Positions 2,774 through 26,671 of a stretch of 26,671 nt of DNA are shown here, piece after piece. Under the pieces are notes generated by a model. That model searched no databases. It saw nothing but the letters and a program-made list of their open reading frames with translations, and was not told the DNA's origin. The translations under genes and the position numbers were made by a program. Every line of letters begins with the position of its first letter. Position 1 is the stretch's first letter. Origin of the DNA: a virus; the IMG/VR virus record IMGVR_UViG_3300020469_000218, positions 1 through 26,671 of that record; one strand, written 5' to 3'.

Positions 2774-2781
2774 TTATTTTA

Positions 2782-3078
2782 TTCCTTATTAAACTGGTTG
2801 TGAATTAGCTACTTTGAACCATCCTGATCCATCAGTAACATAAAGATAACCTGTATCTAATGCTATTGCTTGATCGCCTGATTGCAAACTAGAAAACGGA
2901 AATATGGAAGCATTCGCATAAGTTTCTGTTCTACCAGCAAAAGCATCGACACTGACAGTAACCCCGTCCACATTTAAATCTAAATCTGATTCAAGTTGTG
3001 CGTTCTGAACGCCTCTTGATCTTTTTCTTGATGAAGATATTCCATCTAAATCAGATGCTCTAGCGGGTCTCCACCTAC
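2782..3078. repeat. Direct repeat copy A (297 bp, pair with 4426-4722)
   Basis: Ungapped alignment by eye with 4426-4722 gives about 32 mismatches in 297 positions (roughly 89% identity), mostly at synonymous positions. The repeat covers the 3' part of the 542-aa gene, its stop codon and the ribosome site of the following gene. Confidence 0.9.
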
Positions 3079-4417
3079 TTTTGGCAGCATTCCATTTGAA
3101 ATTTCTACCTTGATGTATATGTGTATCTCCATCCTGAATGGCTGCAGCTTCTGTTGCTGTTGGTGTATAATAATGTACTAAACCATCTCTTTCATTAGAA
3201 TTTTCTGGGTTTTTACAATTAGCCCATAATATATGGTTACCTGTACTATCCATAAACACTCTATTTTCGCCAGTTGATCCTGCAGATGATGTAATTGATT
3301 GTTTGTATGTCCAGGTTGTTCCGACTCTTTGATAAGTCCAATTAGGAAAATTATTTTGGCCAATTGTTCCTATAATTACTCTAGATCCATCATCATTAAA
3401 TGAAAATGTTTTACCAAAATAGTATCCTGTACTGCCACCATGTGCTTTTGTTATAGTAGTTTCTTCAGCGTATGAAGTTCCGTTCCATTTTCCAATCCAC
3501 AATCTACCGTTACCAAAATTATTTGTAGAGTGCCTGAATCCTATTCCTATATAATTACCGTCACCACTCATATTCATACAATTAGCATATGATGCATACC
3601 ATCCGGTTTGATCTATTGTAGTTTCATTTGCTAGAGACCATGTTGTTCCTGATCTTGTATAAACATATATTATAACAGTATCTCCAGTAGGCAAATTATC
3701 TGTTTTAGACATAACTACTATCTTATCACCACTATTATTAATCGCAACGTTTGACGCACCTTTAGTTGGTGTAATTGTTTGTTGGGCTGCCCAAGTGCCA
3801 CCAGTTTTTGCAAAAATACTAATAAATGATGATGGTCCACCAGGAACATCTGCAGAAGCGGCTTGAACTACGTAATTTCCATTACCTGAAATTTGGCAAC
3901 CATTACTTGTTATGTATTCTATACTATTACCTGTATGCCCAAATGCAAATGACCATGTTGATCCAGATCTGCTCCATATTTCAAATCTGCCTTTATTATA
4001 AATGCTGGTCATAGTACCACCAATTACTATAGTCTCACCGGCTAAATCCATATCTACCCATCGTCTGGACATATCATCTTTAGACCAATAACCAAAATAA
4101 TCAGCTCCTGAATTTGAATAAGGTAGGTTACTCTCTATTGTTTGTTGGTGGGTTATTGTATTTCCACTTCTTGTTAATATTTGTGGAAATCCTCCAAAAC
4201 CATCATTTTGACCTGCACGAGGAGTTGCGTTTGAAATCAATATATATTCTGCATTAGCAGAGGCGGCCATATCAATTCCATCATGAGATTTTGTTCTATC
4301 AGTGAATTGTTGAAGGCTTGGGTAACTATTTAGTAAACTTGATGATACATTTGCTTGAAATGTTAAAGTAGCCAACCCAGTATTACTACTACTTGTTGTT
4401 GGTAAAGATAGAGCCAT
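2789..4417 (-). CDS. Beta-propeller tail/virion protein with duplicated C-terminal module
   Basis: A 542-aa protein. Residues about 20-425 contain repeated blades ending in motifs such as WSRSGSTW, YTRSGTTW and YQRVGTTW, each followed by a GDG/SGDG-type loop. This resembles FG-GAP/integrin-alpha or WD-type propellers seen in phage adhesins. Residues about 430-542 form a compact module containing a RWRPARASDLDG stretch and ending in YVTDGSGWFKVA, almost identical to the whole of the neighbouring 125-aa protein. The module is C-terminal here but N-terminal in the next gene, so it looks like a movable docking or oligomerisation unit. The gene starts 15 nt after the 125-aa gene ends, with an AAGGAA ribosome site. 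I infer a virion adhesin, probably a fibre or baseplate decoration; the exact receptor or particle position is not visible. Confidence 0.85.
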   Translation of the reverse strand: MALSLPTTSSSNTGLATLTFQANVSSSLLNSYPSLQQFTDRTKSHDGIDMAASANAEYILISNATPRAGQNDGFGGFPQILTRSGNTITHQQTIESNLPYSNSGADYFGYWSKDDMSRRWVDMDLAGETIVIGGTMTSIYNKGRFEIWSRSGSTWSFAFGHTGNSIEYITSNGCQISGNGNYVVQAASADVPGGPSSFISIFAKTGGTWAAQQTITPTKGASNVAINNSGDKIVVMSKTDNLPTGDTVIIYVYTRSGTTWSLANETTIDQTGWYASYANCMNMSGDGNYIGIGFRHSTNNFGNGRLWIGKWNGTSYAEETTITKAHGGSTGYYFGKTFSFNDDGSRVIIGTIGQNNFPNWTYQRVGTTWTYKQSITSSAGSTGENRVFMDSTGNHILWANCKNPENSNERDGLVHYYTPTATEAAAIQDGDTHIHQGRNFKWNAAKSRWRPARASDLDGISSSRKRSRGVQNAQLESDLDLNVDGVTVSVDAFAGRTETYANASIFPFSSLQSGDQAIALDTGYLYVTDGSGWFKVANSQPV

Positions 4418-4425
4418 GTTTATAT

Positions 4426-4722
4426 TTCCTTATTAAACTGGTTGTGAGTTTGCTACTTTGAACCATCCTGATCCATCAGTAACATAGAGGTATCCTGTAT
4501 CTAAAGCAATGGCTTGATCGCCTGATTGCAGACTGTCGAATGGAAATATAGATGCATTAGCATAAGTCTCAGTTCTGCCAGCAAAGGCATCAATACTAAC
4601 AGTAACACCATCTATATTTAAATCTAAATCTGATTCAAGTTGTGCGTTCTCAACGCCTCTTGATCTTTTTCTTGATGAGGATATTCCATCTAAATCAGAT
4701 GCTTTAGCAGGTCTCCACCTAC
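4426..4722. repeat. Direct repeat copy B (297 bp, pair with 2782-3078)
   Basis: This is the second copy of the duplication. It lies within the 125-aa gene and includes the downstream ribosome site. The two copies start 1644 bp apart, a multiple of three. Homologous recombination between them would remove the propeller-coding region and restore a single intact 125-aa gene. Confidence 0.9.
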
Positions 4723-4896: not shown

Positions 4897-6540
4897 TTAA
4901 GCAGAAACGTTTGTGCGCTTAATCTTAATAGTACCACTATTATTGGCTGGTGTAGCTAATAATGATAAGTTGCCTGCTGATAATGATGCATCTAATGTCA
5001 TTAATGAAGCATTAGTTATTAATGTACCATATTCAGTTAAGTAAACATCTGTACCATCTTGTGTTACGTTAACCATTGTAAAATGCTTGTCTGTTCCTGA
5101 TGTACATTCAACAATATACTGAGCTGCACTATATGTTGCAATTGCAAATGAATCAACAGTTATTTGACTTGTTGATGAAACAGTTGTTGTTGATGTTGTA
5201 GGTAATTTGTCTAATGTTACATCAAATGTTGAAGCATCATCTCTAGTAAATGTAAGAGTATTGTTACTTGATGTCCATCCTGCACCTTGTGTTGATGTAT
5301 TTGCTCTTAGAGCTACATCAAACGTAGAAGCATCTGCTCTTGTAATAGTTAAAGTACTATTAGCTGAGGCAAAGGCTGCACTTGATGAAGATGTGTTAGC
5401 CGGTGTTGGAACAACAGCTACAAAAGCACCATCATAGTAGATGTAAAGATCAGCGTCATCACTGTCATACCATAAATCACCTTCTAGTGGTGATGATGGA
5501 GCAGTATTAGAAACTGTAGTTGCAGATGTTATAATTGACATATCAAATGTAGAACCATCTGCTCTTGTCATTGTTAATGTACTATTAGCAACTGTATATG
5601 CACCAGATGATGTAGATGTATTAGCAATAAGGGTTGTGTTTGCAACGCCTGTCAAGACAACATCAAATGTACTTGCATCATCTCTTGTTATTGTTAAAGT
5701 GTTATTAGCAACAGTATATGCACCAGAAGCAGCTGATGTATTAGCAATATTTGATAAATCAGTACCTGTTGCAATATTAATATAGGTAGAACCATCTTCG
5801 GTTACTTGCCATTTATCTGTTGATTCATTCCATCTTAATGCTACGTTTGCACTTGATCCACGCTCGATTTCAATACCAGCATTTAATGAAGGAGTTCCGG
5901 TTTGACCTGAAGCTAAAGTAATGATAGCATCATTTACAACTAAATTATTTGTATCAATATTTGTTGTTGTTCCCTGAACAGTTAAGTTGCCAGAAATTGT
6001 AAGATCATCAATTGTTAGATCAGACATTGCTACATCAAATGTACTTGCATCATCTCTTGTAAATACAAATGTACCGTTAGAGCCTGTAAATGCAGCACTT
6101 GATACAGATGTGTTTGCTCTTAATGCAACATCTGTAGCTGTTCCATCATCTCTTGTAAATGTAAGAGTTGAGTTAGCAGCAGCAAAAGCAGCACTTGCTA
6201 AAGATGTATTAGCTCTTAAAGCTACATCTAAAGTTGTACTATCAGCTCTTGTTAATGTTAATGTGCTATTAGCAGCAGCAAAAGCAGCAGATTGTGTTTG
6301 TGATCCAATGTCTACAGATGTTGTAGTTGAATCTGCTCTTGTAAATACAATCGTATTGTTACCGGCTGTAAAAGCAGCAGATGCTAATGATGTGTTAGAA
6401 GCAGATGCAACTAATTGATCATCAACATATTTCTTTGTGGCTGCATCAGTATTTGCAGTCGGAGTAGCAAGATTGATAATCTTGTTACTATTTGAGTTAA
6501 CGCCATACTGGGCGAGAAATTCTTTATTAATGGTCGCCAT
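4897..6540 (-). CDS. Repeat-rich tail fibre-like virion protein, 547 aa
   Basis: The N-terminus (residues 1-45) ends in DAATKKYVDDQL, a signature common in marine T4-like fibre proteins. Eight units of about 30 residues follow, of the form SAAFxxxNSTLTxTRxDxSTFDVxL, at about 49-78, 82-110, 112-141, 144-172, 268-296, 308-336, 382-411 and 414-443. Two inserts interrupt them: residues 175-260 (LTVQGTTTN then RWNESTDKWQVTEDG) and residues 340-380 (SPLEGDLWYDSDDADLYIYY). Residues about 452-547 form a C-terminal domain shared with the 323-aa fibre protein (QYIVE, TDVYLTEYGT, IKIKRT). Such repeats suggest an elongated trimeric beta-rich fibre. It is a single-gene unit between late promoter candidates and a strong terminator, with a GGAG ribosome site. 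Confidence 0.88.
   Translation of the reverse strand: MATINKEFLAQYGVNSNSNKIINLATPTANTDAATKKYVDDQLVASASNTSLASAAFTAGNNTIVFTRADSTTTSVDIGSQTQSAAFAAANSTLTLTRADSTTLDVALRANTSLASAAFAAANSTLTFTRDDGTATDVALRANTSVSSAAFTGSNGTFVFTRDDASTFDVAMSDLTIDDLTISGNLTVQGTTTNIDTNNLVVNDAIITLASGQTGTPSLNAGIEIERGSSANVALRWNESTDKWQVTEDGSTYINIATGTDLSNIANTSAASGAYTVANNTLTITRDDASTFDVVLTGVANTTLIANTSTSSGAYTVANSTLTMTRADGSTFDMSIITSATTVSNTAPSSPLEGDLWYDSDDADLYIYYDGAFVAVVPTPANTSSSSAAFASANSTLTITRADASTFDVALRANTSTQGAGWTSSNNTLTFTRDDASTFDVTLDKLPTTSTTTVSSTSQITVDSFAIATYSAAQYIVECTSGTDKHFTMVNVTQDGTDVYLTEYGTLITNASLMTLDASLSAGNLSLLATPANNSGTIKIKRTNVSA
5212..6396 (-). repeat. Eight ~90-bp coding repeats in the 547-aa fibre gene
   Basis: The eight ~30-residue units are also recognisable at DNA level (recurring minus-strand equivalents of ACTAGAGATGATGCATC and of TTTGATGTAGC). 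They are grouped four, two and two, separated by two unrelated inserts. Such arrays can expand or contract by recombination and so change fibre length. Confidence 0.8.
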
Positions 6541-14233: not shown

Positions 14234-14578
14234 TTAGCTTCCTCTTGTTACACCAGGTGTGACAGTTACTAAACCTTCTAATACACGTGTTGCATTATTA
14301 CTATTTAACGTATTATAAACCTCAACATCATATACATATCTTCCTGCAGGAACGATATTAGTTTCTGCAGATGTCATACTTAATTCCATGATACCACCGG
14401 TTGGATTTGTAATATTCGTTGATATTATATGAAATATGCTAGATGAATGTGTTTTTCTAAAATGACATGCTGATGTATGATCTGTTAAATTAAAAATATC
14501 TCCGCTCATGTCTGTAATATTTACTACGATATTAAATTTACTTCCTTGATCTATAATAAGATTAGCTTTTGCTGCCAT
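14234..14578 (-). CDS. Ig-like baseplate-peripheral protein, 114 aa
   Basis: The protein is made of alternating beta-strand-like segments (MAAKANLIIDQGSKFNIVVN, then GGIMELSMTSAETNIV, then GRYVYDVEV, then VLEGLVTVTPGVT). This resembles small proteins of T4-like cyanophages and, more remotely, the N-terminal fold of BppU-like (DUF2479) baseplate proteins. It is the first gene of a late unit, with TATAAATA 32 nt upstream of the ATG and an AAAGAGG ribosome site. It probably contributes to the fibre-attachment part of the baseplate. The family assignment is from memory of sequence patterns and not proven. Confidence 0.8.
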   Translation of the reverse strand: MAAKANLIIDQGSKFNIVVNITDMSGDIFNLTDHTSACHFRKTHSSSIFHIISTNITNPTGGIMELSMTSAETNIVPAGRYVYDVEVYNTLNSNNATRVLEGLVTVTPGVTRGS

Positions 14579-14709: not shown

Positions 14710-15393
14710 ATGAATTTTGTTTGTGTTAATTTTGGCAACATGTATCATAATGCATATGTGGACGCTCTTTATTATATGATATTTATGCGTAATAAAATAA
14801 ACAGCTTTACATGTATTACTGATAGAAAAAGAAATATTAAAAAAGAGATTAACCAAATAATAATTAGTGATGACGAATACGAAGGCGCATGGAATAAACT
14901 TTATTGCTTTCATGATATAGATTTGCCGAATGAATTTGTATTATTGGATTTAGATATTGTATTGCAATCTAATTTTAAATTTAATGAATTAAAAGAAATA
15001 ATTGATAACAATAAGTTATTATTTGTTAATGCAGATTGGGCTATAGATAGCAGACCTTATCAACCTACTCAAATAAATTCATCTCTATTGTATGTTAATA
15101 AAAATTTAAAATCCTATAATAAAATTAGAAAATCTATAGACAAGGGAGATTGGTATCCATATGCTACTATGGATAGATATTTATTTAATATACTTAATAA
15201 AAAAGAAATAGGTTATTTTGATTCATTAAAAATATATTCATATATGGATAATGAATATATGGAAAAAAATTATGATGTATGCCTTTTAAATAAATTTGAT
15301 GGTAAAATATTCGATTATATTATAAGCAGTAACTGGATATTTAAATACTACCCAATTCATCTTTCATATCCATCCACATATCATATTGATTAA
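14710..15393 (+). CDS. Glycosyltransferase-like protein, GT-A type, plus-strand moron
   Basis: A 227-aa protein, the only plus-strand gene seen. Residues 60-64 (AWNKL), then FVLLDLDIVLQS (76-87) with a D80-x-D82 motif after two hydrophobic strands, and INSSLLYVNKN (122-132) fit the small phage or capsule type of GT-A nucleotide-sugar transferase (WNK, DLD, NS-x-hydrophobic). The Asp pair would bind metal and the nucleotide-sugar. No signal peptide or membrane segment is seen, so it should be cytoplasmic. It has its own sigma-70 promoter and AGAGG ribosome site. Its last 53 bp overlap the oxygenase gene tail to tail. Its acceptor could be a virion protein, DNA or a host glycan. The general GT call is fairly sure; the substrate is unknown. 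Confidence 0.8.
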   Translation: MNFVCVNFGNMYHNAYVDALYYMIFMRNKINSFTCITDRKRNIKKEINQIIISDDEYEGAWNKLYCFHDIDLPNEFVLLDLDIVLQSNFKFNELKEIIDNNKLLFVNADWAIDSRPYQPTQINSSLLYVNKNLKSYNKIRKSIDKGDWYPYATMDRYLFNILNKKEIGYFDSLKIYSYMDNEYMEKNYDVCLLNKFDGKIFDYIISSNWIFKYYPIHLSYPSTYHID

Positions 15394-16003
15394 TAATATA
15401 TGATATAGTTATTCTACTGCCAGATTTATTAGCTGCACAATGCCAAACTTTTTTATTGCCTTCATCATGACCACCAAAATACCCTGTTTTTACATTCCAA
15501 CCAATACTATCTTTATGCATAATATATTTTTTAGCATTTAAATCATATTCTTCAAAATATCCACCACCACAATCACTATATGTAAATAATACATTATATC
15601 CTCTAGCATTAGCATTATGATGCCATCCTATATATCCATCTACGGGGTAATATGTCAACAAAGAATTGTTAGATGCACCTAATTCTGATGTCATATTATT
15701 AGCAAGACTCATGACTTTATCTCTATTATTTAATTTATGAGCACCTACACTTGTTCTATAGTCTATAAGTAATGAACATTCAGGAAAGCCTTCGTGATTA
15801 TTGCCATTCATAAGCCATTGATGGTAATCATAACTTGTTCCGCTTGTAATATCCATTCCATCATTATACTCTTTACCATCTCTACCTAATCTTTCATCAT
15901 ATGCTATATCATATAATGTTTTAGTGTCTTCAGATAAAATATTATCTTTAATATCATTTAAAATATGTAATATACTTTTATTTTTAACTTCTATCTTGTC
16001 CAT
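15341..16003 (-). CDS. 2OG-Fe(II) oxygenase-like protein, 220 aa
   Basis: The C-terminal half has the double-stranded beta-helix pattern: YYPVDGYIGWHHNANARGYN (118-137), then VLFTYS, GGGYFEEYD (146-154), GWNVKTGYFG (168-177), VWHC with the distal His (H188), and GSRITISYII with R197, which would bind 2-oxoglutarate. This is the non-haem Fe(II) dioxygenase layout (AlkB/prolyl-hydroxylase superfamily), and similar proteins occur in T4-like cyanophages. The usual H-x-D appears as H128-H129-N130, with Asn where Asp is expected. It overlaps the upstream glycosyltransferase gene by 20 nt, so the two are co-translated. Likely role: hydroxylation of a protein, nucleic acid or small molecule. The target is unknown. 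Confidence 0.8.
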   Translation of the reverse strand: MDKIEVKNKSILHILNDIKDNILSEDTKTLYDIAYDERLGRDGKEYNDGMDITSGTSYDYHQWLMNGNNHEGFPECSLLIDYRTSVGAHKLNNRDKVMSLANNMTSELGASNNSLLTYYPVDGYIGWHHNANARGYNVLFTYSDCGGGYFEEYDLNAKKYIMHKDSIGWNVKTGYFGGHDEGNKKVWHCAANKSGSRITISYIINQYDMWMDMKDELGSI

Positions 16004-16718
16004 CTATCCACTCTTTCTTTAAAGTATGGTGCATTATAACTATATCAGATTTAACTTCAGATTTTTTATATGTATTAACATAATTCCATCTTGCATCGTC
16101 TTCCATTATATCTATTTTCATTTTATGATTTTTTATATTTAAAAGGAACCACCATGCGAATTGATCCCATTGTTTAACACTATTTAAATATTCAGGATAT
16201 TTAATAGTAAATTCTTTAGATGATTGATACTTGAATTGTTTATACCAAACATCTAAAAATTTTAAAATATGAGGCCTTTTCCAATACCCAAATATACCAC
16301 AATGATGAATCATTTTTGCATTGTTATTTTTTTCTTTTGTTAAAAATACTTCTGCTGCTGCATATTTACGAATTGAGGTAGTACATACATCTGCTTCATC
16401 CGATAATTGATCAAAGATTGAGGATATATCTTCATGCATAATTTCCGTATCTGCATCTATATAAAATGTTTTATCATATGGAGTCTTAGATAACATATAC
16501 AGTTTAGTGCGAATATTATATGGACAATCAGTTATAATAGAATCAAATACACCAGAGTTATTGGCTATTGTTCTCCATCGTTCCTCAGTATATAAAGTAA
16601 TATTTGCTTCAGGGTAATAATCTTTTAAAGATTCTGCAGAATATATTGCACTATGAAGATATGGTATTTTGCACGTAGCAGCATACATAAACCCATTTTT
16701 ATTTTTTATTTCGTTCAT
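15984..16718 (-). CDS. Glycosyltransferase, GT8-like GT-A fold, 244 aa
   Basis: The N-terminus is a Rossmann-like start (GFMYAATCKIPYLHSAIYSA), then YYPEANITLYTEE. The key motif is TFYIDADTEI (84-93), whose D88-A-D90 is the metal and nucleotide-sugar binding DxD. It is followed by KMIHHCGIFGYWKRP (135-149), KQWDQFAWWFLL (182-193, with a DQ pair typical of the acceptor or catalytic region) and IVIMHHTLKKEW (226-237), whose His residues fit the C-terminal metal ligand of GT8-like enzymes. It should act in the cytoplasm. It overlaps the 137-aa gene (20 nt) and the oxygenase gene (20 nt), so all three are translationally coupled and downstream of fibre genes. The substrate could be a tail fibre or a host surface sugar; the sequence does not settle it. 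Confidence 0.83.
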   Translation of the reverse strand: MNEIKNKNGFMYAATCKIPYLHSAIYSAESLKDYYPEANITLYTEERWRTIANNSGVFDSIITDCPYNIRTKLYMLSKTPYDKTFYIDADTEIMHEDISSIFDQLSDEADVCTTSIRKYAAAEVFLTKEKNNNAKMIHHCGIFGYWKRPHILKFLDVWYKQFKYQSSKEFTIKYPEYLNSVKQWDQFAWWFLLNIKNHKMKIDIMEDDARWNYVNTYKKSEVKSDIVIMHHTLKKEWIDGQDRS

Positions 16719-17112
16719 TAATTATACCAACAATTGTGTTTACTAAAACTTCCATTTTATTTTTGGATTTTCGTATAGAACGTTTAAATTCTTTGTTGGT
16801 TGTATTTTTTACTTCATCCATCTCAAATGCTTCAAGTTTTGCCATAAACAATTCTTCACCATCTATTCTTGCTCTATTTTCAACATCACGTTGATTTTTT
16901 CTGCTTTGCATTTCTCTAAATATGCGCAAAGATTCATCGGTATTTTTATCTATTTGTTGGATTGTATATTGTGATATAAGTGATTTATAATCACTATTTC
17001 TTTCATCTCTAGGTATAATAATTTTTACCTTATTACCATTATCATCAACACTATTAACTTCTATTTGTTTTTTTTCTTCTGGTATTAACCATTTGGGTTC
17101 TATATATCTCAT
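16699..17112 (-). CDS. Charged small hypothetical protein, 137 aa
   Basis: I do not recognise it with certainty. The N-terminus MRYIEPKWLIPEEKK resembles small proteins found between structural genes of T4-like cyanophages. The rest is highly charged and probably helical (RIFREMQSRKNQRDVENRAR, then EFKRSIRKSKNKMEVLVNTI). No membrane segment is seen. It starts 3 nt after the repeat fibre's stop, and its end overlaps the glycosyltransferase start by 20 nt. Its position suggests a chaperone or partner for the Tyr-rich fibre. Confidence 0.75.
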   Translation of the reverse strand: MRYIEPKWLIPEEKKQIEVNSVDDNGNKVKIIIPRDERNSDYKSLISQYTIQQIDKNTDESLRIFREMQSRKNQRDVENRARIDGEELFMAKLEAFEMDEVKNTTNKEFKRSIRKSKNKMEVLVNTIVGIINERNKK

Positions 17113-17115
17113 AAT

Positions 17116-18519
17116 CTATGCTATCCTCAACCATAATGCAATTGTTGTAATACTGTTTTTAGAACTTGATACAGTATCACTTGTAAAATTACCTGTATAA
17201 TTACCACTATATTCTGCTGTAAAATTCCCAGAATATGATCCAGTAAACATACGTGTATACTCTCTATTATATATGCCTGTAAAACTACCAGTATATTGCC
17301 TATTATAAGATCCTGTATATTGCCTATTATATGTTCCTGCATACTGTCTATTATATGTTCCTGCATAATAGCCAATATATGATCCTACATATGAACCTGT
17401 AAATCCAACTGGGCCATATCTAGCATAACTTCCAGTATAATAATTGTAATTATATCGAGGTCTTCCATTAAAATATGAAGTGCTTACATGGAGCGCATAT
17501 GTTCCAGTAAAATATCCAGTTATTTGTTGTGATGTATAAGTTCCAGTATAACTCCCAGTATAACTCCCTGAAAAATTTGTTGTTAATGCACCTGTATATT
17601 GTCCTGTATATTGACCTGTATATTGGCCACTATAACTTGCAGTAAAATCTCTATTATATACTCCTGTATATTGTCCAGTGAAGCTTCCTTGATATTGACC
17701 GGTAAATAATCCAGTATATTGTCTATTATACGTTCCTGTAAACGATCCTACGTATGTATTTGCTGCAACTTGTTGCCTTGTATCAATAAATGTATCACCT
17801 ACTTGTACCCATGTTCCAGTTGTTGGTGGTGTTGTGGCTAACGAATATCTACCTACTTCTGTGGATACAATTCTATTTCTATATCTATCTGTTAATGTTT
17901 CTATTTCAACATCAGTCATTTCTTGCATTGTACCATCTATACCAAGCTTTAATGGTCTTATTACTGTTGGTAAGGAATCATTTGTTTTTTTCCAAAGATA
18001 AGATGTGTTAGAAGAACTTCCACCACTACCCCCAAATGTATCTGTCAATGATGCTACTGACACCCAAGTGCCTGAAAATATTGTAGCTGGAGTTGATGTA
18101 GAAAGATAATATTGACTTATAGATGGTGTTGATATATTAGCTAAATTAGACGAAATATAATTCATAATGTTGTTATCTAAATTATTACTAGACATTGGTC
18201 TAGGTTTTTTATTATCTAATTCTAAAGGACTAACAGTTGTTTCCGATACTGAGACAAGATTCTGTGATAAAGTTGTAGTGGTTGTAGTTATTTGACCATT
18301 TGCTGGGTGTGTGCCAATAGATTCCACTCTTGCAGTATCGGAAAAATAACCTATTGTAGTACCAACACCTGCTATATTTAATGCACCTGTGCTATTATCA
18401 GACTCTAATGATACTTTTCTTAATACCAAGTGTGTGATATAATCCATATCTGTATTAGACATTTCTTGAATATCAACTGAAGTATTTCCAGTTCGTATTA
18501 ATTTTAAAGGGTTGCCCAT
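17116..18519 (-). CDS. Tail fibre-like protein with Tyr/Phe-x-Gly tetrapeptide repeats, 467 aa
   Basis: The N-terminus MGNPLKLIRTGNTSVDIQEM belongs to a structural family I associate with T4-like cyanophages. Residues 140-250 contain two similar blocks (SQYYLSTSTPATIFSGTWVSV and RYSLATTPPTTGTWVQVGD). Residues 256-447 are a nearly continuous [YF]-x-G-x array (TGQYTGQYTGQYTG, YNRQYTGSYNRQYTG), interrupted at about 340-370 by YALHVSTSYFNGRPRYNYNYY. The last 20 residues (KNSITTIALWLRIA) are an ordinary beta-rich end. The period of four with aromatic and Gly suggests a compact beta-roll or helix-like shaft. It is followed directly by a small helical protein gene, a glycosyltransferase and an oxygenase; the many Tyr, Thr and Ser side chains are possible modification sites (inference). 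Confidence 0.87.
   Translation of the reverse strand: MGNPLKLIRTGNTSVDIQEMSNTDMDYITHLVLRKVSLESDNSTGALNIAGVGTTIGYFSDTARVESIGTHPANGQITTTTTTLSQNLVSVSETTVSPLELDNKKPRPMSSNNLDNNIMNYISSNLANISTPSISQYYLSTSTPATIFSGTWVSVASLTDTFGGSGGSSSNTSYLWKKTNDSLPTVIRPLKLGIDGTMQEMTDVEIETLTDRYRNRIVSTEVGRYSLATTPPTTGTWVQVGDTFIDTRQQVAANTYVGSFTGTYNRQYTGLFTGQYQGSFTGQYTGVYNRDFTASYSGQYTGQYTGQYTGALTTNFSGSYTGSYTGTYTSQQITGYFTGTYALHVSTSYFNGRPRYNYNYYTGSYARYGPVGFTGSYVGSYIGYYAGTYNRQYAGTYNRQYTGSYNRQYTGSFTGIYNREYTRMFTGSYSGNFTAEYSGNYTGNFTSDTVSSSKNSITTIALWLRIA
17179..17754 (-). repeat. 12-bp-periodic coding repeat for Tyr/Phe-x-Gly
   Basis: About 48 tetrapeptide units are encoded by a degenerate 12-bp period (plus-strand recurring CCTGTATATTG, CCTATTATATG). 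Some are higher-order units such as YNRQYTGS. The array is a natural target for slippage or recombination. Confidence 0.85.
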
Positions 18520-18531
18520 TATATATTTTCC

Positions 18532-20886
18532 TTATTGTGGCCAAGCCACATCGCCATTTGCATATAAAATTTCTAATTTAGCACCGGTACTATCAACAAT
18601 ACGCGCTGCAGTACTTAAAACAATATTAGCATTAAAATTGGTTACTGCATCAAATGTGTCAATAGTTTCTTTTAATGTAGTTCCACTTGATAATCCTATT
18701 TCTAATGTATTATTACTATTTTTCCAATCAAGAGAAGCAACACCAGCTACAGAAACATCAGATACACTTGTTATTCTGCCTTTATTATCTACTGTAAATT
18801 GAGGCACAGCAGAGGCACTACCATATGTTCCTGCAGTAACTCCTGAAGTAGCTAACCTTGCTGCTACTAAAGTACCAGAAGATATATTTGATGCATTTCT
18901 ATAATATGAACCTTCTTGGCCATCTAATAAATCTGCATCTAATCCACTAGTAGCACCGTCATTATTCTCATGCCATATTTGATAAGAATGTGTAGCATTA
19001 GAACTAATTACTAATCCACTATTACCAATACCAGTATTAGCTACTCTTATATTTATTGGCGTAGTACTATCTGCATCTGTGTCAGCAATATGGACAGTAC
19101 CATTACCAGAAATATGTAATGTATTAGCTTGAACGTTCCATCTTTTAGTAGATGATCCTAATGATATTGCATTTGTAGTAGGAATAACATTGTTAGCAAA
19201 ATAACCTTTTGTATCTATAATATCTCCATTATTATCACCTAAAACTGTGTTTCCGGCAACAGAAAAATCACTTGTTACAGAAATTTCTTCGATAGTAGCA
19301 TTAGAAGATATAATTGATTGTGCATGCACATTTTGCCAATTTTTTGCAGATGATCCTAAATCATAAGTAACATCCTCGGTTGGTATTATATTAGTATTTA
19401 CAGTAGCATTAATAGTTACTACACTATCTGTATTTGCTCCAATTTGTGTGTCGTTTAGAATTGTAAAATCTTGAGCGCTTGTATTAGAAATAAAATTAAT
19501 ATTTCCAACAACTTCCATATCTTGCTCTACTCTTAAATGGCCTTGGATTACTGTATTAGATCCACCTATTGTTACATTAGCACCAATATTAGCAGCTCCA
19601 TCCACTTCTAGAGATCCAATCGTATCAATATTGCCGGTTGTAGCTGATACTTCAAATGCATTAGCAGTACTATTAGCTGACACAGATATACCATTATTTG
19701 CATTTATTGATCCACTAGCACCAATGTTGCCACCACTAACATTAACACCATTTGCTGATATTTGTCTGGTTGTTAAGTAATTAATAAAGCCATTAGCATA
19801 TGCTTTAGATGAGGTGCCAATATTATATGTATTAGTAGCACTAGGAGCTACTTGTCTAGTAGTTGTATTAGATGTAATAGTTACAACGCCAGTTACTGAT
19901 AGAGCAGAACTTAAAGCAACATTATTTGTTACTGTTAATTGATCAGAAATACTGACATTTCCAGAAGTATCAAGTGTACTGGACATAGTAACTGCCCCAA
20001 CTATGTTTGCAGTGTTAGAGAGCGTTAAAGCGCCAGTAACTGCTAATTTATCGCCAATACTTACATTTCCTGTTGCGGTAGTTATGCCTGTAATACTAAG
20101 ATCTCCACCAACAGATAAATCATTAGATAAAGCTACATTAGAAGTTATATTAACTTCGCCACCAGCAATTGAGACATTAGCAGATGTAATATCAACCTGT
20201 GTGGATGATATACTTGTATTAGAATTAGTTATATCTACATTTGCAGATGTTATAGTTACATTGGAGCCTACCGCAAATTCACCACCAGTGATTTCTGTGT
20301 TTGATGATGTAACACTTACATTACTTGTTGTTACTAAATTACCAGAATCAACTATTAAATCACCAGAGATAAATGTATCAGATGTTATATCTACTGATGT
20401 GGATATGATATGTATATTAGCTCCAGATAAACTAACATTTGATGTTGATGTAATTTGTTTACCTACAATATGAGTATTTGTATTATTAATTGTTATATTG
20501 GCTGTAATGGTACTATTAGCACCACCTATAACAGTATTGTCTGTTGTAGTTACTCTTTTGTTAAATAAAACAGTATTGCCTACTATAGTATTAGAATTTA
20601 TATTTAATGTTGAATTAGAAGCAAAAGTGGCATTTGATCCTATAGTTAATAACCCACTTGAATCTACAGTACCACCTCTTATTATATCTTTAGCAATTAA
20701 AGTATTAGCACTAAAAAAACCATTAACATGAGCATTGCCAGTAGTTTGACCTCCCGTACTATTTGCAAATGTTGTTATAACAACAGTGCTCATATCATAT
20801 ACTATTTGATTAGTACGTTCAATCCACGATGCGAAGGTATCTGTTTGGGTAGCTACATTAGCACCTATATATTTTGACTCTGACAT
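18532..20886 (-). CDS. Long tail fibre-like virion protein, 784 aa
   Basis: The N-terminus (YIGANVATQTDTFASWIERT, then NQIVYDMSTVVITTF) matches T4-like cyanophage fibre proteins. Residues about 60-330 are dense short beta repeats of the form N-V-[ST]-I-[TS]-[SG]-x and TSANVDITNSNTSI, probably a fibre shaft. Residues about 330-640 repeat VSIS/LTVT-type strands and include two NIIPTEDVTYDLGSS or NVIPTTNAISLGSS units. At about 640-690 is the classic fibre signature DGATSGLDADLLDGQEGSYY with SSGTLVAARLA. The end is LEILYANGDVAWPQ. It starts inside the 63-aa gene's stop (TAATG) and ends 12 nt before the Y-x-G fibre gene. It is a strong candidate for a receptor-binding or connecting fibre. Confidence 0.88.
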   Translation of the reverse strand: MSESKYIGANVATQTDTFASWIERTNQIVYDMSTVVITTFANSTGGQTTGNAHVNGFFSANTLIAKDIIRGGTVDSSGLLTIGSNATFASNSTLNINSNTIVGNTVLFNKRVTTTDNTVIGGANSTITANITINNTNTHIVGKQITSTSNVSLSGANIHIISTSVDITSDTFISGDLIVDSGNLVTTSNVSVTSSNTEITGGEFAVGSNVTITSANVDITNSNTSISSTQVDITSANVSIAGGEVNITSNVALSNDLSVGGDLSITGITTATGNVSIGDKLAVTGALTLSNTANIVGAVTMSSTLDTSGNVSISDQLTVTNNVALSSALSVTGVVTITSNTTTRQVAPSATNTYNIGTSSKAYANGFINYLTTRQISANGVNVSGGNIGASGSINANNGISVSANSTANAFEVSATTGNIDTIGSLEVDGAANIGANVTIGGSNTVIQGHLRVEQDMEVVGNINFISNTSAQDFTILNDTQIGANTDSVVTINATVNTNIIPTEDVTYDLGSSAKNWQNVHAQSIISSNATIEEISVTSDFSVAGNTVLGDNNGDIIDTKGYFANNVIPTTNAISLGSSTKRWNVQANTLHISGNGTVHIADTDADSTTPINIRVANTGIGNSGLVISSNATHSYQIWHENNDGATSGLDADLLDGQEGSYYRNASNISSGTLVAARLATSGVTAGTYGSASAVPQFTVDNKGRITSVSDVSVAGVASLDWKNSNNTLEIGLSSGTTLKETIDTFDAVTNFNANIVLSTAARIVDSTGAKLEILYANGDVAWPQ

Positions 20887-21089: not shown

Positions 21090-24000
21090 CTATACAGACA
21101 GTGCTAGTGCTCTATAATCATTTACTTTAGGAATAATATTACTACTAGTAGTTGTTAATACAATTTTTATTGCAAATGATTTATATTCATCATATTTAAC
21201 ACCATTATCATCAAAATAAGAAGCTACAAATTCATTTTGAGGATCTTTAAATATAGCATGATCTTGAGATAAAATTTCTAACTGTGTTCCTGCTTTAGTA
21301 AATCCAAGTTCCTGGTCAACAATAATTACTGATGTGTTAACTGAGGCAACTCTAGTTATTTGATAATCTGTATTAGAATCAGAATTTACAATTTTCAATA
21401 ATGTTCCTGTTCCTACAAGATTGGCAGATCCATTAGAGAATCCAGGAGTATTACCAGATACACTTATTGTTGAGATACCATTTGATGTAGATCCAACACC
21501 AACAAGAGGTGTTGTATCAGGACTGCTTGGAAGATCATATTCATATTCTATAACATCAAATTCATTTGATGTTGAACTAAAAACGTCATTACCTAAATTT
21601 GTCAATTTAGTCCACTTTTTATTATTAAATTCTTGATTATCCGCTGAATTTAATCCTTTTAAAAATACATGTACATCTGTTCCTGCAGGCCTATATGCAG
21701 ATACAAATATTTTCAAATCTTCAGCATCTAATCCTTCTTTTAAATTTACAGTTCTGGAAATATATTTACAAACAGATGACCCATTAGCATATGCTTCATT
21801 ACTAATTGTATTATTAATGTCTGATTTAAATGTCAATAAACTTGTTGCTTGGGTATCTAATGCTGGAGTTAGTGTAATTTTACCAGTTGATAAATTCATC
21901 GTAGTTGTTAATGTTTTATTGCCTGAATTGTCAACAATTTCATTACTTTTACTATATACTGCTGGCTCAAACGCTAATATTCTGTTGTTATCATTAAATT
22001 TCATATCTACTATTGTTGTGTTAGATGTACTGTCTGCAGCTGTTAATGTAGATGTACCATTATTTGTAATATTACCAGCAAATGATAATCTATACATTAA
22101 AGGTTGAAAATAACTTACAATTTGATTATCAACCGTTGTTATAACTGCATTAGCATTTGAATCCGCTGCAATTAATGTATCGTTATTTGCAAATAAATAT
22201 GTTGAATTTGATGCATTACTATTAGTTAAATGTAAAACACCATCATTATTGTTGTAGTAACTTACGCTACCTGAAGGTGTTATTTGGTAATTAGCTATAG
22301 TATTAGAAAATAATGGTTGCCCTTTTATTGAAAGTTGTGTATTATTCGCTATACTGTTTACAGATAATACTTGAGATCTAATTGACCCATTAGAATCCGC
22401 ACCGACAACCACAATTCTATCACCAACACTAAAATCCGTTGTGAATGTAGTACTTGTCCCAACTAAATTACTACTTGTTGCGGACATACTTATCGTTTGT
22501 GCACTAACATTAGCTCCAGATTTATATACTAATTCACCATTAAAAAATGACCCACTCATATCTTGAATCTTTAAAAATTCTATATCAGGGTTATTGAATA
22601 TTGCTGTTCCAGATGTAGAAGAAAAATCACATCTATATATGTTTACTTTTAAATTTTCATCTTGTGTAGCTGTCCATGTTCTATTATTTGTTGAAAGAAA
22701 TAAAACACCATCAAAACTATCTTGTGTTATATTATCTGATCCTGTTGTTAAATCAGATTGTCCAATTTTTGACACCCATAATTTATAACTTGGGTTATTA
22801 CCATCTGGTTTTATGATTACAGCATATTCATTACCTTGCCTCATAAACAATGGAGAGTCAAATGTTACAGTAGTAGATATAGATCCATTATTACTTGTGC
22901 TAACTTCTGCCGAAGTTAAATGTTTTATTCCAAAAGGTAATATTTCTTGAGCAGGTGTTCCATTAAATACTGTTCTCATTTCTATAGTAACACCTTCAAC
23001 TGCATCTTTTTCTGCAAAAAATAAATCTATTTTAGGTACAAAGATACCTTCTTCATCTTGTGAAATACTAGGTCCAATATAAAATGTTTGAGCTAGTGGG
23101 TCATCTACACCGGCTCCTGGATCACCTCCATTACCTACACCACCAGATTCTGATTCGTTTCCACCATCGTCACCACCATCATCTTGTTGTTGTTGCCATG
23201 TCACCTGTCTACTTCTACGCGATTCTACTGATCTTGATGTCTCAATTGTTGTGTTTGACCAACCTATTCTATTAAAAGTTGGTTGTCTTGTACTAATAGA
23301 CGAACTACCTTTTTCGATAGAAAAGTTATATGCATTATATGCGGTTAAGCTTATTGATGTTGCATCTTTCAATGACGTAGAAAATACTTCATCAGCTACT
23401 GTTAATATTCTCTCACCTACAAAGAATGTTTGTGCTGGAATTCTGAAGCTACCTGCAACAACACCAGCACCATCTGCGGTTATTGTTCCTCCAAACTCAC
23501 CTATTTCTTCTATATCATTTTCTGTTATATCTGCACCAGTTCCTGTAATTATAGCAGCTCTGCAATGTTGATCTACAGCTGTGTCATCAAAATATATGTA
23601 GTGTCTAGTATTAGGTCTTAAACCGTGTACTACAAATTTTACAATTCTTGATCTCATATATGGTTGCATAGCCATATCAGTCATATATTCGCCAACTTCT
23701 ACTGTTGATATATTACTATCTGATATATTCAGAAGTTGTCTTGTTTCTCTAATTGTTCTATCTCTTATAACTTCAAATGTATTTGTGGTCTCAGTTCCAC
23801 CACTATTGCCATTATTCCAACCAGTAGTTGTTGAATTTAATAAAACATCTCGCGAAACATCATTTATAATATCAAATCTTCTTTGGTTTATTACGTCTAT
23901 TTTATTTAATTCTCCAATTAAACTTTCAAATCCAGATGTCATATCAATTACTACATTATTAACTTTTTCTGGGTTTATAGTAGTATCATAGAAATTATCA

Positions 24001-26671
24001 TAGTTTGGAAATAATGTCATTGTGCCATTATATCGATGAAATAGTTCAGTAGCATTTCTGGATTTTGTAGCATATGGATTAGATAATACTAAATTAGCGG
24101 AATAATCATTTGTTATAAGATCACCTGTCTTTGTAACATTTGAACTTAATGAACTATTAAATGATAAATCTAAATTTACTTGTTCAACTTTTGGAATTAA
24201 TTGAGCTGCAGCTTTATCAACACCTGCTTTATATTCTAAGCTATTAATATTACCAATACTTAAATCTTTAAATGCATCTACCAATATACCATTTTTAAAT
24301 CTATCTAATCCATTAGAACCCTTTATTATTAAATCAGTGGTTTGTTTTTCTAATAAATTTAAAGAAGTATAATATTCAAGTCTTGATAATCTTTCTTCCA
24401 TATCACCAATATCAGACATTGTATATCTTCTAATTTGCCTTACACTTGTTTTAATACCATATGATGGTCGTTTACTTGTAATAGCATCTGTTATACTTAA
24501 TGATGGATATACTGGCACTGATACTGTAGCTATTATCATACCTGTATCTGGCTTTGTTGGAGGAACAGGAGATTCTGCTGCTAATCCTTTAATAACACCT
24601 ATTTGGCCAGTAGATTCAATATGCAGCATATCAATCCTAGAAAGATAATGTTTAAAATCAGCTACAAATTCTCTTCCAGGAGCTACAAATTTGTCATTAC
24701 TAAATGATATTGCATTTGATGGATTTACTGTCGCTGATACAATTGTATTTGCATATACTCCAGTATTAGCTGTCATAGGTCTAAAATCTATTGAGTCTCT
24801 TAAATCATATTGTTTACCTGATGTAGGAGAATTAAATAAAGGAATGTCTTCAGTCCTAAATTGGGTATTATCAATACTGCCTGAATCTGTCGGAGCATAT
24901 GAATCTATTGAAAAAAATCCGGAGCCTCCTCCAGTACTATCTTTTTGAAATGCATTAAAGTGAACCAATAACTTATCTGAAGCAGATATTGTTAAAGATG
25001 AACTTGATTTTTGTTCTAATGTAGATATACCATAATATGCATCTTTTTGGCCTGGATTTATAACAAAATGAGAAGTTACATCTGTTTCCGTATTTGCATA
25101 TGTAGAACCTTTATATACAGCTATTAATTGTAAAGCATCTGGCACACCCAAAGACCATGGACCAGATGTGCTATTTACATTATTAGAAGTATCAATTTTT
25201 GTAAACACTTCTCTTAAATTTTTATTTACTTGAACAGCACTGTCTATTTTGACGGGATATATTACTGCAGCATTAATAGTTGATGATAATGACTCATCCA
25301 AATTAATTGTCATTTTTTGTTGACTTTGTGATATTACAACATTTGCAGATCTACTAGACAATGGTATTGAGGTATCTTTTGGAAAATTTCTATAATGTGC
25401 TGCATTATTAACAGTAGAACCAAATGCAGATTCGAGAACTATATGAGTTGTGTTTGTTATAGCAGCAATTCTAGAAGATGATGATTCCCCTGATATTGAT
25501 ATATAGTCACCTACATTATAATCTGATACAAAATTAGTTCCATTACCTTCGATTGTAGTATTGGAATGTGAGGTTGCTGTGCCAGTTCGTGCTACAGTAT
25601 TAGCTCCTGTCAATGATGTAACAATAATTTGGCGTTCTTGAACACTGTTTAGTGTTGAATCATCTGTAAACGGAAATTTGCTATTTCCAGATAATACTAT
25701 TTCTAAAGAACCGTTACTTGCAAATGTTATAGCATCATTCATATCTCTGTGTATAAATGTTGTATTATTAATACCTTGAGAATTGCGTATAGTTGATACT
25801 CCCGTAGATCCTAGCGGATGCACACTAACTGCTAAACCACTATCTTTTAATACAGCTTTATTTGATTCCAGTAATATATCAGCTACAAAATCATAGGTAG
25901 AAGTAAAATGGATTGATCTAACACTACTAAATTGTTTTCCTGCACTCATTGATATATCAAACAAATATACTCTATATGTTGCTGCAGGAGTGCCAGGAAC
26001 ACCTTCATGATTCTCTACTGCTCTAACTCTAGCAGTCCCTATTGAATTAGGTAATGATGATGGTGCTTCTGCATATTCACTAGTTATACCTTGATAAGCC
26101 GCTGAATGTAATGTTATTTGACTTCCTGATGTATAATTTAACGAACCAAGTAATTCATTTACTATTATATAATTGCCAAAATTTGGAGTTATTGTTTGAT
26201 TTAATTTATCTACTTGAGTTGTAGCTTTTTCTACAGGAATTCTTGTTGCGTCATGTAATTGAACTCTATATCCATCAACATATGCTAGGCCTGCACCAAC
26301 AACCATACTTGTATGTGTTGTATTACTAACAATATTCTCTGATCTTATAGCAAAAGGTTTAACAACATAATCACCACTTTCATCATTAGTTCTTGATGCT
26401 AACTCTTGGCCTAGTCTATTATATTGTGTAGTTTGATTTCTAGTTATGGTTTGTCCACTTTCAAAATCAACAAGAGAAAAAAAGTTATTAGCAGTAGTTT
26501 TTTGTGCTTTAGTTTTAACAACTAATTTAGGTTCTAATTTTAATCTAAATGCGCCTGGAGCATTTTCATTATTAAATCCTTGAGCATTATCAAGTAATGA
26601 TGTATCAATAGAATTATTAACTACACTTTCTACTACCTCAAAGCCAACTGATAATTCATGAGCATTGGCAG
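21090..26671 (-). CDS. Giant DUF4815-type virion structural protein (N-terminus cut by window edge)
   Basis: The frame is open from the right edge to the stop at 21090 (at least 1860 codons). An internal ATG at 26304-26306 could be read as a start, but the 121 codons upstream are open and coherent (FRLKLEPKLVV, YNRLGQELASRTND), so the true start lies outside. The conserved cyanophage-type core includes RRYTMSDIGDMEERLSRLEY (about 24373-24435) and GLDRFKNGI (about 24285-24311). LRPNTRHYIYFDD (about 23586-23623) and DPLAQTFYIGP (about 23071-23103) follow, after a Gln/Asp/Gly low-complexity linker near 23129-23197. The C-terminal third is beta-rich and repetitive (about 22500-21200). Members of this family are large virion proteins of T4-like marine phages, probably at the baseplate periphery. 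It leads the fibre operon that follows. Confidence 0.88.
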   Translation of the reverse strand, partial: ANAHELSVGFEVVESVVNNSIDTSLLDNAQGFNNENAPGAFRLKLEPKLVVKTKAQKTTANNFFSLVDFESGQTITRNQTTQYNRLGQELASRTNDESGDYVVKPFAIRSENIVSNTTHTSMVVGAGLAYVDGYRVQLHDATRIPVEKATTQVDKLNQTITPNFGNYIIVNELLGSLNYTSGSQITLHSAAYQGITSEYAEAPSSLPNSIGTARVRAVENHEGVPGTPAATYRVYLFDISMSAGKQFSSVRSIHFTSTYDFVADILLESNKAVLKDSGLAVSVHPLGSTGVSTIRNSQGINNTTFIHRDMNDAITFASNGSLEIVLSGNSKFPFTDDSTLNSVQERQIIVTSLTGANTVARTGTATSHSNTTIEGNGTNFVSDYNVGDYISISGESSSSRIAAITNTTHIVLESAFGSTVNNAAHYRNFPKDTSIPLSSRSANVVISQSQQKMTINLDESLSSTINAAVIYPVKIDSAVQVNKNLREVFTKIDTSNNVNSTSGPWSLGVPDALQLIAVYKGSTYANTETDVTSHFVINPGQKDAYYGISTLEQKSSSSLTISASDKLLVHFNAFQKDSTGGGSGFFSIDSYAPTDSGSIDNTQFRTEDIPLFNSPTSGKQYDLRDSIDFRPMTANTGVYANTIVSATVNPSNAISFSNDKFVAPGREFVADFKHYLSRIDMLHIESTGQIGVIKGLAAESPVPPTKPDTGMIIATVSVPVYPSLSITDAITSKRPSYGIKTSVRQIRRYTMSDIGDMEERLSRLEYYTSLNLLEKQTTDLIIKGSNGLDRFKNGILVDAFKDLSIGNINSLEYKAGVDKAAAQLIPKVEQVNLDLSFNSSLSSNVTKTGDLITNDYSANLVLSNPYATKSRNATELFHRYNGTMTLFPNYDNFYDTTINPEKVNNVVIDMTSGFESLIGELNKIDVINQRRFDIINDVSRDVLLNSTTTGWNNGNSGGTETTNTFEVIRDRTIRETRQLLNISDSNISTVEVGEYMTDMAMQPYMRSRIVKFVVHGLRPNTRHYIYFDDTAVDQHCRAAIITGTGADITENDIEEIGEFGGTITADGAGVVAGSFRIPAQTFFVGERILTVADEVFSTSLKDATSISLTAYNAYNFSIEKGSSSISTRQPTFNRIGWSNTTIETSRSVESRRSRQVTWQQQQDDGGDDGGNESESGGVGNGGDPGAGVDDPLAQTFYIGPSISQDEEGIFVPKIDLFFAEKDAVEGVTIEMRTVFNGTPAQEILPFGIKHLTSAEVSTSNNGSISTTVTFDSPLFMRQGNEYAVIIKPDGNNPSYKLWVSKIGQSDLTTGSDNITQDSFDGVLFLSTNNRTWTATQDENLKVNIYRCDFSSTSGTAIFNNPDIEFLKIQDMSGSFFNGELVYKSGANVSAQTISMSATSSNLVGTSTTFTTDFSVGDRIVVVGADSNGSIRSQVLSVNSIANNTQLSIKGQPLFSNTIANYQITPSGSVSYYNNNDGVLHLTNSNASNSTYLFANNDTLIAADSNANAVITTVDNQIVSYFQPLMYRLSFAGNITNNGTSTLTAADSTSNTTIVDMKFNDNNRILAFEPAVYSKSNEIVDNSGNKTLTTTMNLSTGKITLTPALDTQATSLLTFKSDINNTISNEAYANGSSVCKYISRTVNLKEGLDAEDLKIFVSAYRPAGTDVHVFLKGLNSADNQEFNNKKWTKLTNLGNDVFSSTSNEFDVIEYEYDLPSSPDTTPLVGVGSTSNGISTISVSGNTPGFSNGSANLVGTGTLLKIVNSDSNTDYQITRVASVNTSVIIVDQELGFTKAGTQLEILSQDHAIFKDPQNEFVASYFDDNGVKYDEYKSFAIKIVLTTTSSNIIPKVNDYRALALSV

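Follow-up and report, generated by a model that had tools for sequence, protein, structure and literature searches.

Virion glycosylation is known from mycobacteriophages, where capsid and tail-tube subunits are the targets given in the excerpt of PMC12619734 that cites Freeman et al. 2023, and the available portion of PMC7029224 describes the host-recognition cluster of pelagimyophages as variable, interpreting its glycosyltransferases as O-chain-modifying enzymes. Here we describe a locus in IMGVR_UViG_3300020469_000218, a 26,671-base IMG/VR virus record that was analysed in full (the window) and comes from an uncultured phage of the T4 superfamily, in which genes for an aromatic-repeat tail fibre, a small helical protein, a glycosyltransferase (GT) and an oxygenase-fold protein follow one another. 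We put the probability at roughly two in three that these four genes form a fibre-and-decoration module, with which the virus decorates its own fibre.

The module is found in a large group of uncultured, mostly marine viruses of bacteria. Scanning viral contigs with alignments of the oxygenase, the GT and the helical protein yielded more than 200 loci (each scan covers the best 80 matches or a sample of the matches listed, and the samples overlap), and the four-gene order recurs at ~41–42% mean enzyme identity. When loci were anchored on the GT and grouped into 86 clusters at 90% identity, every GT (86/86) had the helical gene as its immediate upstream neighbour, the second gene upstream was a repeat fibre in 81 of the 84 clusters in which that position exists, and the oxygenase lay downstream in 80/83; exceptions included contig ends, inserted genes, cut open reading frames (ORFs) and a few other genes in the fibre or oxygenase position, and one locus, L010, has two genes inserted between fibre and helical gene. 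Queries with the fibre head gave 66 fibres that were untruncated and had 1.5 kb or more of sequence on the downstream side; the helical gene and the GT follow in all 66 and the oxygenase in 65, the sole case without it (L242) having 1.7 kb of downstream sequence. Scanning for the repeat itself, by a degenerate DNA motif encoding [YF]TGx[YF]TGx[YF]TG and independently of homology to the head or the enzymes, gave 31 ORFs that had eight or more lag-4 pairs and were followed by 2.2 kb or more of sequence; one of them (L319) had no repeat density and was set aside as a chance match. The remaining 30 fibres were accompanied by the helical gene (30/30), the GT (30/30) and an oxygenase in line (29/30), with the oxygenase of the last (L366) inverted relative to the cassette. 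A further YxG fibre, L333, is not immediately followed by a helical gene and, with only 0.5 kb of downstream sequence, cannot be judged. The GT, the oxygenase and the helical protein have correlated pairwise distances (r 0.81–0.84). The linkage of fibre, helical protein, GT and oxygenase is thus near-obligate, and the check on related genomes suggested by the original prediction, namely whether the enzymes co-occur with the repeat fibre, gave an almost invariably positive answer from three starting points.

Long records give the same picture: 13 phage contigs of 101–218 kb each hold a single oxygenase and a single GT. In the only annotated relative, Phage C48C1 (OQ984149), repeat fibre, helical protein, GT, oxygenase and an L-shaped fibre assembly homologue stand in that order; it was the only cultured relative with both enzymes at E < 1e-5 among 50,697 phage records, and no paper on it was found. 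The Pelagibacter (SAR11) phage Mosig encodes a fibre whose head is similar, as judged by eye, but which has no repeats; an epimerase-like gene and a relative of the helical protein (E 6e-10) come next, and both GT and oxygenase are missing. This single contrast is suggestive of a tie between the enzymes and the repeat. Both enzymes are also absent from Cr30, phiM12, HTVC008M and Melnitz, and a profile comparison with oxygenases of HTVC008M and Mosig, at a probability of 2.6%, is not used as evidence. Bacterial homologues amounted to only three matches, in contigs of metagenome-assembled genomes within the genome_contigs collection. Near-obligate linkage, together with the lack of both repeats and enzymes in Mosig, suggests that the enzymes act on the fibre encoded with them, which bears out the earlier assignment of these enzymes to the repeat fibre.

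The fibre of the window contains 37 aromatic pairs at a spacing of four residues, as against 7.7 ± 2.5 in shuffled sequences (maximum 16 in 5000 shuffles), with harmonics at 8 and 12, and 31 [YF]xG motifs as against 6.5 ± 2.3 in shuffles; this four-residue periodicity is far above chance, in a protein without a PHROG match. Averaged over 81 fibres, the aromatics of the repeat unit are 70% Tyr and 30% Phe, accompanied by 1.05 Thr or Ser and 0.76 Gly per unit, the presence of an aromatic in every unit being a consequence of how the unit was defined. Some fibres contain almost only Phe, some few Thr/Ser and some little Gly. Pro and Lys average 0.01 and 0.02 per unit, with higher Lys in one remote clade (L147, L158), a composition that rules them out as general acceptors. 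The collagen analogy of the original prediction was not borne out, the repeat being a four-residue aromatic unit and not Gly-X-Y, and collagen-like Pro/Lys hydroxylation was rejected because the repeat is nearly free of both residues. The best candidates for modification would be the aromatics and, in most fibres, Thr/Ser. Since the L010 fibre lacks the usual head and is made of repeats, the repeat is the element common to all fibres. The Phage C48C1 fibre (L003:1415–11458) is an unusually large aromatic-repeat protein of 3,347 amino acids (aa) with interspersed non-repeat insertions.

The GT of the cassette has an invariant D88-x-D90 motif, and its AlphaFold2 model (predicted local distance difference test score, pLDDT, 94.8) finds glycogenin-1, UGGT and LgtC as best solved folds (E ~1e-9 to 1e-8). 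On this model the protein has a predicted GT-A fold with a DxD motif, the top folds being GT8 enzymes, and its sequence profile matches glycogenin (E 0.002). Pfam Glyco_transf_8 was matched by 3/75 members at E < 0.1 (best 0.009), and more members matched GT2 or Nucleotid_trans weakly. Glycogenin glucosylates a protein tyrosine, and a predicted glycogenin-like fold beside a Tyr-rich fibre is suggestive, with the fold similarity standing at 16% sequence identity. Tyr-glucosylation as a strict universal mechanism was weakened as a candidate by the fibre clade that is mostly Phe.

The oxygenase has no match by sequence in Pfam, in PHROG or among solved structures in the PDB. Its AlphaFold2 model (pLDDT 93.8), predicted from an alignment without rows from phage records, has as best solved folds P. 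putida prolyl-4-hydroxylase, PHD2, OGFOD1 and chlorella-virus vCPH (E ~2e-5 to 6e-4; Foldseek probability 0.95–1.00 to these among others), and it also matches cyanophage and giant-virus 2-oxoglutarate (2OG) oxygenases in a viral library. The predicted fold is the double-stranded beta-helix of the 2OG-Fe(II) oxygenase superfamily, in agreement with the gene having been called 2OG-Fe(II) oxygenase-like, while the putative iron motif departs from that description in being H-x-N and not H-x-D. Across 77 sequences there is no variation at Y119, W127, H128, N130, N137, G148, D165, W169, H188 and R197. In place of the HxD/E...H iron triad, H-x-N was found in 48/48 GT-anchored, 38/38 helical-anchored and 56/56 oxygenase-anchored distinct sequences, sets that may overlap, with the motif required by the oxygenase scan itself and not by the other two. 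We therefore call it an oxygenase-fold protein and not a canonical 2OG-Fe(II) dioxygenase. The distal His is invariant, as is R197, a candidate basic residue for 2-oxoglutarate located nine residues past H188, on the next strand of the model. The literature search found nothing relevant to an HxN triad. With Asn replacing the metal carboxylate in every distinct sequence tallied, and with the tight link to fibre and helical gene, the oxygenase and GT folds might be pseudo-enzymes serving as non-catalytic assembly or carbohydrate-binding partners of the fibre; loss of function normally permits drift, however, and the catalytic-type residues are invariant (D-x-D in the GT; H128, N130, H188 and R197 in the oxygenase), and we regard this explanation as rather improbable.

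In the decoration module that we favour, the fibre, helical, GT and oxygenase genes would be read together, and the GT8-type enzyme would glycosylate the repeat region of the fibre, during or after folding with the helical protein. The oxygenase-fold protein would oxidise residues of the same repeat, either making the sugar acceptor or adding a second decoration, and neighbouring variable GTs could extend or vary the sugar. The likely benefit would be a fibre that is stiff, soluble and coated with sugar, a change in receptor binding or proteolysis, or both. We infer the fibre as substrate, the reaction order and the modified residue alike. As far as the models go, the module is also favoured by the best solved folds, which are those of protein-modifying enzymes: the GT resembles glycogenin and UGGT, and the oxygenase resembles prolyl hydroxylases. 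The more specific proposal of a new tailed-phage pathway, in which a non-canonical H-x-N oxygenase hydroxylates aromatic or neighbouring repeat residues and a glycogenin-like enzyme glycosylates them, is one that we hold tentatively, at well below even odds.

Several observations weigh against the favoured module. The locus counts show tight linkage within the family and not its outer bounds, remote members being uncounted. No single repeat residue is common to all 81 fibres, Tyr falling to 8–13% of aromatics in one clade and Thr/Ser to 0.33 per unit in others. For the oxygenase, Foldseek template-modelling (TM) scores against solved structures are only ~0.3–0.4, HxN may mean lost or altered iron chemistry, and Phage C48C1 carries two further copies distant from any fibre (L308 18279–18911 and L309 40130–40798). 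One of these extra copies stands between the tail tube gene and UvsY, and the other is flanked by a DnaB-like helicase and a NifU-like gene; L308, the first listed, also has H-x-N. An oxygenase and a GT are the right pair for DNA-base modification, as in base-J-type pathways, and the C48C1 paralogue adjoining the helicase would be in line with such a role, but the cassette enzymes are encoded by overlapping genes downstream of the fibre, within the structural region, and their nearest folds are protein hydroxylases and glycogenin, leaving DNA modification very improbable.

All five ORFs named in the original prediction, for the Y-x-G fibre, the helical protein, two GTs and the oxygenase-like protein, were found in their places (Table 1). 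The tight packing with overlaps is present: 3 nucleotides (nt) separate the ORFs of fibre and helical protein, and the helical/GT and GT/oxygenase junctions overlap by 20 nt each. The earlier wording masked the opposite orientation of the second GT, which converges on the oxygenase with a 53-nt overlap. Compared with L004, the closest relative in this analysis, whose enzymes are ~98% identical to those of the window, the nonsynonymous rate (dN) is below the synonymous rate (dS) for all six cassette and neighbour genes, the helical gene included, on few changes.

Table 1 Features of the fibre cassette and its surroundings in the window.
Feature	Coordinates	Strand	Remarks
Aromatic-repeat (Y-x-G) tail fibre, 467 aa	17116..18519	-	Head QEMT...GTW...DTR domains, 4-residue aromatic repeats, C-terminal ...LWLRIA
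Small helical protein, 137 aa, putative fibre assembly/chaperone	16699..17112	-	Putative role, from position only
GT-A/GT8-type GT (predicted)	15984..16718	-	DxD at residues 88-90
2OG-oxygenase-fold protein (predicted)	15341..16003	-	W-H-x-N ... H188 ... R197; HxN replaces HxD/E
Second GT, another family, accessory	14710..15393	+	phrog_1962 E 7e-6; convergent with cassette
L-shaped tail-fibre assembly homologue, next structural gene past cassette	14234..14578	-	phrog_1084 E 3e-24, phrog_3304 E 1e-18
Tail-fibre-like structural protein, upstream of Y-x-G fibre	18532..20886	-	phrog_25747 E 3e-16
VrlC tail/baseplate protein, edge of host-recognition region	21090..26669	-	Homology to VrlC of phiM7/phiN3/HTVC008M; Cr30

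The helical protein of the window has no Pfam match above the cut-off, and neither it nor 31 relatives gave an informative PHROG match, so that a known chaperone domain was not found among them. The second GT is part of a more variable neighbourhood outside the fixed core, a gt2-like gene lying at most four genes from the oxygenase in 73/86 cases. Beside the cassette of L010, on a 133-kb phage contig, are KdsA-like (DAHP_synth_1, E 3e-48) and KdsB-like (CTP_transf_3, E 3e-27) genes (L010:14178–15558), a pair for synthesis of the sugar 3-deoxy-D-manno-octulosonic acid (KDO) in a phage, and in L009:10704–14325 a GT25-family gene directly after the oxygenase is followed by a radical SAM/SPASM gene, a GT2-type GT and a sulfotransferase-like gene. 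Neighbours of these GT2-, GT25-, sulfotransferase-like and KdsA/KdsB-like kinds, and the position of the window cassette next to VrlC, in the variable host-recognition region, would also fit host-surface modification, in which GTs (and the oxygenase) alter the host O-chain or lipopolysaccharide (LPS) and block superinfection, as proposed for GT8-rich islands in the available portion of PMC7029224. This reading does not account for the two-way association of GT and oxygenase with a single fibre type and its helical gene, or for the absence of the enzymes where the fibre has no repeats; we consider it unlikely for the fixed core, while the more variable second GTs, which it fits better, may well act in this way.

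As for the source of the window, the nearest homologues of its VrlC are in Caulobacter phage Cr30 and Sinorhizobium phages phiM7/phiM12/phiN3, with a further homologue in HTVC008M, and its other genes are tail-fibre-like. Because the closest VrlC proteins come from alphaproteobacterial phages, the host may be alphaproteobacterial. A cyanophage origin was rejected on the same VrlC affinity and on the absence of psbA, which none of 13 large relatives encodes. The same cassette, at 98–99% protein identity, is present in IMGVR_UViG_3300001472_000003 (149.5 kb). Elsewhere in the window, a 300-nt direct repeat (2771–3070 and 4415–4714, 88% identical) represents the C-terminal part of a 542-aa ORF copied as a separate 125-aa ORF, and eight degenerate 88-nt repeats lie within a tail-fibre-like gene (5221–6403).

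The module is not described in any Pfam or PHROG entry or paper that we found, and the literature search found nothing relevant on fibre glycosylation, a weak negative because most subscription journals fall outside the search. These findings make a testable modification system out of a part of phage genomes that had lacked annotation, and they offer an alternative to the standing view that GTs of host-recognition regions act on host LPS. A family with an oxygenase fold but without the metal carboxylate in any member examined would also be a useful case for iron-enzyme chemistry.

Were the more specific pathway of aromatic-repeat hydroxylation and glycosylation correct, viruses of bacteria would have an equivalent of collagen decoration that works on a repeat unrelated to collagen. 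With prolyl hydroxylases, including vCPH of PBCV-1, the oxygenase-fold protein shares the predicted fold class, the distal His and the Arg, and it differs in HxN for HxD/E, in a repeat with almost no Pro and in the lack of a sequence-level Pfam or PDB match. For the GT, glycogenin (GT8) gives both the closest solved fold and the best profile match, and the fibre beside it is rich in Tyr, whereas identity is low, LgtC and UGGT are nearly as good and some fibres have mostly Phe for Tyr. The pelagimyophage cluster occupies the same slot beside VrlC, with fibres and GT8-type GTs, and the fibre-helical-GT-oxygenase core is not described in the available portion of PMC7029224. Like the mycobacteriophage system, as far as the excerpt of PMC12619734 conveys it, the locus would provide phage-encoded GTs for virion proteins, and unlike that system it implies a repeat fibre as the target, adds an oxygenase-fold partner and keeps a fixed gene order.

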